Positions 46,176-47,267 of a DNA stretch of 64,000 nt are shown here, in pieces; the first letter of the stretch is position 1; the number at the start of each line of letters is the position of its first letter. The notes under the pieces are model-generated. The model saw nothing but the letters and a program-made list of their open reading frames with translations. It was not told the origin of the DNA and made no database searches. The stretch comes from Sinomicrobium weinanense. GTDB taxonomy: Bacteria; Bacteroidota; Bacteroidia; Flavobacteriales; Flavobacteriaceae. The stretch is from NCBI RefSeq assembly GCF_018863395.1, contig NZ_JAHKRR010000004.1, forward strand, positions 496,001 through 560,000, given 5' to 3'. The position numbers were made by a program, and so were the translations under genes.

Positions 46176-46739
46176 TCAATCGTTTAATTCGTTATACAAT
46201 AATTGCAGTTCTTTTTTGAGCCGTATCACGGCATATCTTTTTCTGGACAACACGGTGTTGACAGACACTTTTTGTCTTTTGGCGATCTCTGCTACGGGTA
46301 TTCCCTCCAGTTCGTGGAGCGCAAAGGCATCCTGTTGCTCTTTCGGGAGCATTTCCAGGGTATATTCCAGAATCCGGTATACTTCTTCCTGCCACAGTTC
46401 GGTTTCCTGGTGTGCCGGAATGTGTTCCTGTAACCAATCGAAAATGCTGTTTTCGTTCTCCTCGTCATTCGAAGGCCTTGTGAGGTCAGAGGCAGGGGTA
46501 GGTTTCTTTTTACGGATAAAATCAATGGCTTTGAACCTTGCTGTGCTGTAAAGCCATGAAGTGATCTTGTCCATGTCCTTGATCTCCTCAAAACCCAGCA
46601 CCAGGTTGTAAAAGACATCCTGAACAATATCCTTTGCATCTTCCCGGTTGGGGATCCACTGTCTCAGAAAATAGATCAACCTGCCTTCTTCTGATAAAGT
46701 TACCCGTTCTATGACACTATTTTTTGCCTGTTGATCCAT
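46176..46739 (-). CDS. ECF-type RNA polymerase sigma factor
   Basis: 187 residues. Region 2: LIYFLRQWIPNREDAKDIVQDVFYNLV and ITSWLYSTARFKAIDFIRKKKP; a linker of about 45 residues; region 4: LPKEQQDAFALHELEGIPVAEIAKRQKVSVNTVLSRKRYAV. It heads a three-gene minus-strand operon with the membrane protein and the HMA-like protein. No FecR-type anti-sigma is nearby, so the membrane protein is the best candidate for control. Confidence 0.9.
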   Translation of the reverse strand: MDQQAKNSVIERVTLSEEGRLIYFLRQWIPNREDAKDIVQDVFYNLVLGFEEIKDMDKITSWLYSTARFKAIDFIRKKKPTPASDLTRPSNDEENENSIFDWLQEHIPAHQETELWQEEVYRILEYTLEMLPKEQQDAFALHELEGIPVAEIAKRQKVSVNTVLSRKRYAVIRLKKELQLLYNELND

Positions 46740-46837: not shown

Positions 46838-46916
46838 CCTTGCTGAAAAATGAATATAAAATGCGTCTTTTTACGTGATGTTCCGTCTTAATAAATGTAA
46901 CTTAAAATTCATTATT

Positions 46917-47021
46917 ATGAAAACAACAGCTCGTTGCGAATGCCAGTGTGCGTCTTGTAAAGAAGGGAACTGTTCTGACTGTACCTGTAAGAATTGTAAC
47001 TGTGCCCATTGTGAGTGTTAA
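46917..47021 (+). CDS. Metallothionein-like cysteine-rich micropeptide (34 residues)
   Basis: ATG 46917 opens a frame of 34 residues ending at TAA 47019-47021. Eleven cysteines are at positions 7, 9, 11, 14, 19, 22, 24, 27, 29, 32 and 34, mostly as CxC and CxxC pairs, with one histidine (31) and no aromatic or large hydrophobic residue. Such composition (32 percent Cys) is typical of metallothioneins, which bind Zn, Cd or Cu(I) in thiolate clusters; it is shorter than SmtA/BmtA and lacks their fold signatures. It lies upstream of a SigZ gene and opposite a sigma/membrane/HMA-like operon. The length is below most gene-finder limits. Confidence 0.75.
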   Translation: MKTTARCECQCASCKEGNCSDCTCKNCNCAHCEC

Positions 47022-47093
47022 TGTTTGGTTTTGATCTTGCGATTTTCCCAAACCTTAATCGAAAAACGATAATTCTGTCAATGACATGTTTTA

Positions 47094-47181
47094 TTCTGTG
47101 GTTCTCTGTGGAACCTCTGAGCAACTTTGTGTAATAACTATTTCACAGAGATACACAGAGGTTTCACAGAGTTTCGCAAAG
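47094..47181 (+). repeat. Inverted array of CACAGAG-type units upstream of sigZ
   Basis: Left arm TTCTGTGG, TTCTCTGTGG, AACCTCTGAG, CAACTTTGTG (47094-47131). Right arm TTTCACAGAG, ATACACAGAGG, TTTCACAGAG, TTTCGCAAAG (47141-47181). Units are about 10 nt, and the arms are reverse complements with a 9-nt loop, so a long hairpin is likely. Related CACAGAG repeats occur in many bacterial genomes. Confidence 0.7.
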
Positions 47182-47267
47182 ATTTGATCATGGGCTTAAT
47201 GTCATTACAATTTATGCGGTTACTTAAATGTTATCTCTTGCAGTGACGCTTTTTGTATATTCGTATT

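Follow-up and report, generated by a model that had tools for sequence, protein, structure and literature searches.

We propose that a short cysteine-rich frame in Sinomicrobium weinanense encodes a micro-metallothionein for soft metals and metalloids, which would be the main output of a SigZ regulon and would share a two-gene unit with sigZ, in which it comes first; on the basis of sequence comparison we consider this reading probable. The frame lies in a 64,000-nucleotide stretch of the genome, hereafter called the window, and the features of the module are collected in Table 1. The first-pass annotation had presented the frame as a metallothionein-like micro-gene. That description is supported, with one correction: the micro-gene is one half of a SigZ module, not a lone gene.

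Table 1. Positions of the module's features in the window and the evidence used for each
Feature	Position	Strand	Evidence
Promoter-like box TGCGTCTTTT-N12-CGTCT, proposed SigZ-dependent promoter	46862..46888	+	genome scan, upstream alignment
Micro-metallothionein-like gene, 34 aa, 11 Cys	46917..47021	+	translation, conservation, dN/dS
Strongly folded stretch separating micro-gene and sigZ; in relatives, hairpins that resemble terminators	47022..47267	+	folding z scores
sigZ, SigZ-type ECF sigma factor; linker C98, C-terminal C156, C157, C175, C178	47268..47810	+	TIGR02959

The micro-gene and its conservation

Translation confirms the frame that the first-pass annotation had proposed, from ATG to stop, and the cysteines fall exactly at the positions claimed for them (7, 9, 11, 14, 19, 22, 24, 27, 29, 32 and 34). 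The peptide is 32% Cys with CxC and CxxC motifs and has no F, W or Y, i.e. it has the composition of a metallothionein. Its Cys content places it first among the 346 frames in the window that start with ATG and encode 20-80 aa (25% when read from an upstream ATG, runner-up 16%), and 20 windows shuffled by base pairs gave at most 6 Cys in any frame of 20-45 aa. The claim that the Cys pattern goes beyond chance is thus borne out by the frame ranking, by the shuffled windows and by the conservation described below. The open frame extends upstream to a GTG, giving a 48 aa version, and the conservation of the protein starts at ATG 46917.

No second copy was found in the organism's own genome (5.36 Mb, 30 contigs searched). 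As had been foreseen, annotation overlooks the gene: the window peptide matches no curated model in Pfam or NCBIfam, those for metallothionein families included. When the peptides of 20 relatives were compared with the same two collections at E up to 10, the sole match was to M20_dimer (E 0.21), which is unrelated, and a PDB sequence search left the peptide family without a match. A plasmid-borne gene was also considered and found little favour, as tblastn against 72,556 plasmids returned one 13-residue Streptomyces match (E 7), in a search where low-complexity filtering may hide matches.

Matches to the micro-gene with E ≤0.01 were found in 21 of 198 relatives, the own genome being counted. 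One of them (G185, L021; E 0.008, one stop) was left out before alignment, and in all 20 aligned relatives, two of which belong to the same genus, the 11 Cys and Gly17 are invariant. The gene has thus passed the first of the refutation tests proposed for it, which would have counted a lack of homologues with conserved cysteines against it. With a profile (E 0.001) the gene was detected in 69 of the 397 family genomes searched, and a phylum-wide draw of 345 genomes contained it in 5, every one from the same family, which we infer to be the Flavobacteriaceae because of the names of the relatives found in the SigZ scan. The comparison of synonymous and non-synonymous change that had been suggested gave a dN/dS of 0.10 overall and about 0.26 outside the Cys codons in 34 close pairs (at least 80% identity), the 32 loci used having been chosen from 35 by a strict Cys pattern which L140, L143 and L150 do not fit. 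Within the 28-codon stretch bounded by the outermost Cys, on which these dN/dS values are also based (32 named loci and the window), third codon positions are the most variable ones. Judged by this conservation, 46917-47021 is a real, conserved gene.

On broken frames in sister genomes, which had been named as grounds for doubt, the gene also passed, both aligned same-genus copies keeping all 11 Cys. Erosion is seen in some genomes of the family. The micro-gene of G270 is frameshifted and its sigZ carries two stops, Cys residues are lost in G093 and G064, and a stop lies near the start in G408; the departures from Cys conservation are degenerate or SigZ-less copies. Two other genomes of the same genus (G001, G002) have neither the micro-gene nor sigZ.

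Linkage to sigZ

The sigma factor of the window scores 170.3 bits against the SigZ family model TIGR02959, above its cut-off of 168.65, which is passed by 3 of the 20 relatives' genomes with the others just under it; against a second SigZ model, NF007215, it reaches 184.6 bits, short of the cut-off of 212. The Cys columns are occupied in most of 45 relatives (C98 in 40, C156 in 45, C157 in 44, C175 in 33 and C178 in 36), where the last two columns carry 11 and 9 gaps that come partly from cut matches. An AF2 model of SigZ has a mean pLDDT of 88.8 and a pTM of 0.49.

The single SigZ match at E 1e-25 sits immediately behind the micro-gene in 18 of the 20 genomes. In the samples of the family, all 51 SigZ matches of at least 170 bits are located 6-249 bp behind a micro-gene on the same strand; the peptide was sought in 397 genomes and SigZ in 395, two sets that are not fully identical, the gaps are measured between matched stretches, and one of the 51 matches (G052) is cut by a contig end. 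G476 has an adjacent SigZ too, though it stands outside the list of SigZ matches. Among the 69 genomes with the micro-gene, 52 have an adjacent SigZ and 17 do not, and the latter count against an explanation by a SigZ module. No SigZ-like frame was found in the stretches examined around these 17 micro-genes. Three of the SigZ-less genomes (G064, G093 and G303) retain the usual downstream neighbours, which looks like loss of sigZ in place. In two other SigZ-less loci, both from one genus (L031 in G057 and L114 in G354), the micro-gene stands before genes that by eye are carbonic anhydrase-like and SulP-type transporter-like, perhaps a link to zinc supply.

The window contains a second ECF sigma gene on the minus strand (46176-46739), divergent from the module and kept in the same-genus genomes G003 and G004; the two small frames behind it have no family match in Pfam or NCBIfam.

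The spacer between the micro-gene and sigZ folds at -68.5 kcal/mol (window positions 47019-47264; z -4.3 against dinucleotide shuffles). In relatives, z is -2.8 or lower in 29 of the 30 spacers folded (mononucleotide shuffles), L173 being the exception without structure; two spacers of named relatives were too short for folding. These hairpins suggest partial termination, by which more peptide than sigma factor would be made. The dominant feature of the window spacer is a CACAGAG inverted repeat (about 47095-47171), which was not seen in the relatives' aligned spacers and looks like an inserted repeat element.

A promoter-like box at the micro-gene

The box upstream of the micro-gene ends 28 bp before the ATG, and from its distribution we propose that it is a SigZ-dependent promoter. 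An alignment of upstream regions gives the consensus TGCRTCTTTT-N13-GTCT. Every SigZ-positive locus of the first set (18 of 18) has the box, as do 28 of the 32 named loci that belong to the window's class; in the latter it ends 25-30 bp upstream of the ATG (the exact box is absent at L142, L151, L161 and L162). In 27 of 31 further SigZ-positive genomes the exact box stands at the micro-gene (G378, G203, G224 and G262 do not have it), and 3 other sites compare with 2 hits of the reversed-pattern control; in SigZ-positive G476 the box has one mismatch. At the micro-genes without SigZ the box was found in 0 of 17 loci.

The own genome contains two exact box sites, against 0 for the reversed pattern. 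The second of them (L065:1501-1527, i.e. G000:C1:1299098-1299124) ends 17 bp before a TonB-dependent receptor gene, which is a possible further target of SigZ. A one-mismatch search of 24 genomes found 40 sites, 19 at the micro-gene and 21 elsewhere, compared with 14 in the control, so most of the 21 are probably due to chance. Four of these 21 were examined: the TonB receptor, two CDF exporters and a site in G102:C13 that falls within a potassium-channel-like gene. Behind the box sites of G004:C14 and G380:C24 no convincing gene was recognised.

Metal and metalloid genes behind the same box

A scan for relatives of SigZ gave 449 loci, of which the best 80 named ones were taken. These 80 loci contain 66 box sites, L187 and L195 among the loci concerned, while the reversed control gave 0 in 0.99 million strand-bases. 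Among the best 80 of 449, the gene behind the box is arsM (arsenite methyltransferase, above the NF008823 cut-off) in seven loci (L174, L177, L179, L181, L191, L199 and L207), arsI/cadI (above the NF041414 cut-off) in three (L185, L192 and L216), an ArsP_1 permease in two (L196 and L213) and a DUF2703 gene in one (L175). The loci with arsM, arsI/cadI and arsP are mostly labelled as other phyla, the labels being record titles, mostly of MAGs. In Bacteroides ihuae and in a Bacteroidales MAG (L178 and L182) the box belongs to a MATE exporter gene on the opposite strand, and an FAD-dependent oxidoreductase lies behind it in L202 and in L218:1305 (G282), in the latter genome after a second SigZ-like sigma factor. 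The SigZ proteins of L178, L182, L186 and L193 have a C-terminus ending in or near CCCC.

Less securely, CDF exporters and DUF3703 proteins may be counted as box-linked genes in relatives. CDF exporters start 24 and 18 bp behind the box in two relatives according to the one-mismatch search, where each site taken alone is weak because the off-gene sites barely exceed the control. DUF3703 proteins follow the box in L057 and L146 (by Pfam) and in L148 and L170 (by eye).

Beside the module of the window no known metal-resistance gene was recognised, and the second box of the own genome belongs to a TonB receptor, which counts against a metal reading. In its favour, arsM, arsI/cadI and arsP, and less securely the CDF exporters, stand behind the same box elsewhere, so the comparison supports the metallothionein-like reading of the first-pass annotation. 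As what appears to be the same switch precedes arsenic and metal detoxification genes elsewhere, we think it very probable that the peptide binds metal as a protein in miniature. With regard to the metal that would be bound, arsenic genes dominate elsewhere, and the zinc-type exporters in relatives are a weaker hint.

Reversed gene order and other micro-genes

A Cys-rich micro-ORF is found near SigZ in 46 of the best 80 of 449 loci compared with 2 in 314 kb of far flank, a count whose thresholds were chosen after the data were seen. The micro-ORF lies before the sigma gene in 38 of the 46 and behind it in 8, in 7 of these on the same strand. In seven loci among the best 80 of 449 (L183, L188, L194, L201, L204, L205 and L209) the micro-gene is behind the sigma gene and the box is found at both genes; it is exact at both in L183, L201, L204 and L205, and one copy deviates in L188, L194 and L209. 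It would be difficult to account for this arrangement if the box were not the promoter used by SigZ.

A second SigZ-like group, scoring 165 bits or less, has a different micro-gene, whose product is 37-39 aa long, contains 14 Cys and ends in CC. This micro-gene stands directly before the sigma gene in 9 of 11 loci inspected, and a TGYRTCYTTT...GTCT form of the box occurs in 7 of 10 loci of this group, L180 being one of them; the second-clade sigma loci L132 and L135 are without a micro-ORF. Outside the phylum, Pseudoalteromonas lipolytica (L210:319-3540) has a SigZ relative that follows a box-bearing Cys-rich frame of 67 aa; this copy is preceded by alcohol-dehydrogenase- and esterase-like frames which resemble formaldehyde-detoxification genes.

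Proposed mechanism and alternative explanations

In the model that we propose, SigZ would sense a metal or metalloid directly through its Cys residues in a CorE-like manner, and active SigZ would read the box and cause strong transcription of the peptide gene. The hairpin behind the micro-gene would stop most transcripts and leave the peptide in excess, while read-through would yield some more SigZ as positive feedback. In the cytoplasm the peptide would use its 11 thiolates to hold soft metal ions (Zn, Cd, Cu(I) or As(III)), and this uptake of metal would close the loop.

It is also conceivable, though we hold it to be unlikely, that the peptide is mainly a regulator of SigZ, which it would restrain by metal buffering or in an anti-sigma-like manner (withholding metal from SigZ or binding to it), detoxification being secondary. 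The linkage of all 51 SigZ matches, the joint breakage of both genes in G270 and the lack of a recognised anti-sigma factor in the ORF listings beside sigZ would fit such a role, whereas 17 of the 69 genomes with the micro-gene keep it in the absence of SigZ, and its slot is filled by Cys-rich peptides of several architectures, which argues against one specific protein contact.

We find it quite improbable that what the thiols of the peptide take up is not metals but electrophiles or oxidants (aldehydes, disulphide stress). The strict CxC/CxxC spacing exceeds the needs of a plain thiol sink, and the box precedes arsM, arsI/cadI, arsP and CDF transporter genes in other loci. What speaks for a sink is that some relatives have a pyridine-nucleotide-disulphide oxidoreductase and an MFS transporter as neighbours of the module, together with the frames resembling formaldehyde-detoxification genes before the Pseudoalteromonas copy and the FAD oxidoreductases behind the box in L202 and L218.

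A short frame with Cys codons, then a strong hairpin and then a regulated gene could also be the mark of a leader peptide, in which ribosome stalling at the Cys codons resolves an attenuator hairpin and turns sigZ on. Canestrari et al. (in 2020) reportedly described such attenuation by poly-cysteine leader peptides in mycobacteria, and the micro-gene shares with those ORFs the position of a short Cys-rich frame before a regulated gene. The resemblance ends with the order of the genes, which is reversed in other clades: the micro-ORF lies behind the sigma gene in 8 of 46 loci, and in 7 of them it is on the same strand with a box of its own (both counts from the best 80 of 449). Moreover, the frame is kept in the 17 genomes without SigZ, and selection acts on the spacing of its amino acids, with the Cys positions and Gly17 conserved and a low dN/dS even outside the Cys codons. 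The reversed order and the SigZ-less copies in particular disfavour attenuation, to which we give very little credence.

Finally, a chance open frame or a relic, which the silence of annotation models might suggest, is already refuted by the conservation in relatives and is practically excluded by purifying selection, the promoter box, the sigZ linkage, the Cys ranking and the shuffled windows as well.

Comparison with known systems

Small metallothioneins are familiar from other organisms. SmtA/BmtA and the Pseudomonas proteins have about 50-80 residues and mycobacterial MymT about 53, and the copper metallothioneins of fungi such as Neurospora, which are eukaryotic, form a single cluster with CxC motifs, about 25 residues and 7 Cys. 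Set side by side by description, the Neurospora type and the window peptide are both very short and carry CxC motifs. SmtA/BmtA and the Pseudomonas metallothioneins are, like the window peptide, small and Cys-rich, and metal-thiolate clusters have been shown for them, e.g. Cd4Cys9His (PMC7387436). They also use His, and smtA is under the Zn repressor SmtB, in contrast to the sigma factor proposed here. MymT, again compared by description, is likewise small and Cys-rich and is copper-protective and controlled by RicR (PMC10141476).

A close parallel to SigZ is found in Myxococcus, where CorE depends for its copper response on a CXC in the linker and a Cys-rich domain at the C-terminus, and CorE2 responds to Cd and Zn (PMC8999054). 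CorE, CorE2 and SigZ are all ECF sigma factors with Cys in the linker between sigma-2 and sigma-4 and in a C-terminal extension. Unlike the CorE-like groups (ECF44/ECF238), SigZ has a single linker Cys, kept in 40 of 45 relatives (the second clade has CC there), and no CXC occurs in the window protein. The C-terminus of SigZ has a short CC...C..C (CC in 44 of 45, the further C..C in 33-36 of 45), much shorter than a domain. A further difference is that the proposed targets of SigZ include a metallothionein-like peptide. The mechanism of SigZ is plausibly like that of CorE, even without the CXC.

In the open-licence literature we found no link between SigZ and metallothioneins, SigZ and arsenic, or metallothioneins and ECF sigma factors, and no metallothionein of this system from Flavobacter or Bacteroidetes. 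To our knowledge SigZ has been assigned neither a signal nor a promoter nor a metallothionein partner, and the open-licence literature yielded none.

Significance

Beyond this genome we lean, with some reserve, towards a wider reading, namely that SigZ-type ECF sigma factors are a single class of metal(loid) sensors which occurs in several phyla and reads a nearly invariant box, TGCRTCYTTT-N11-14-CGTCT. In many bacteria this class would drive genes for arsenic methylation, a lyase or a permease, and in Bacteroidota and at least one Pseudoalteromonas its main output would be recurrently evolved Cys-rich micro-peptides, i.e. sigma-controlled micro-metallothioneins overlooked by annotation. Should the proposed reading of the module hold, very small bacterial metallothioneins would form a family in a phylum where the open-licence literature yielded none, and the SigZ sigma factors would gain a proposed signal, promoter and regulon. 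The module would then be a minimal circuit of metal response, consisting of one sensor sigma factor, one 34-residue buffer and one promoter.
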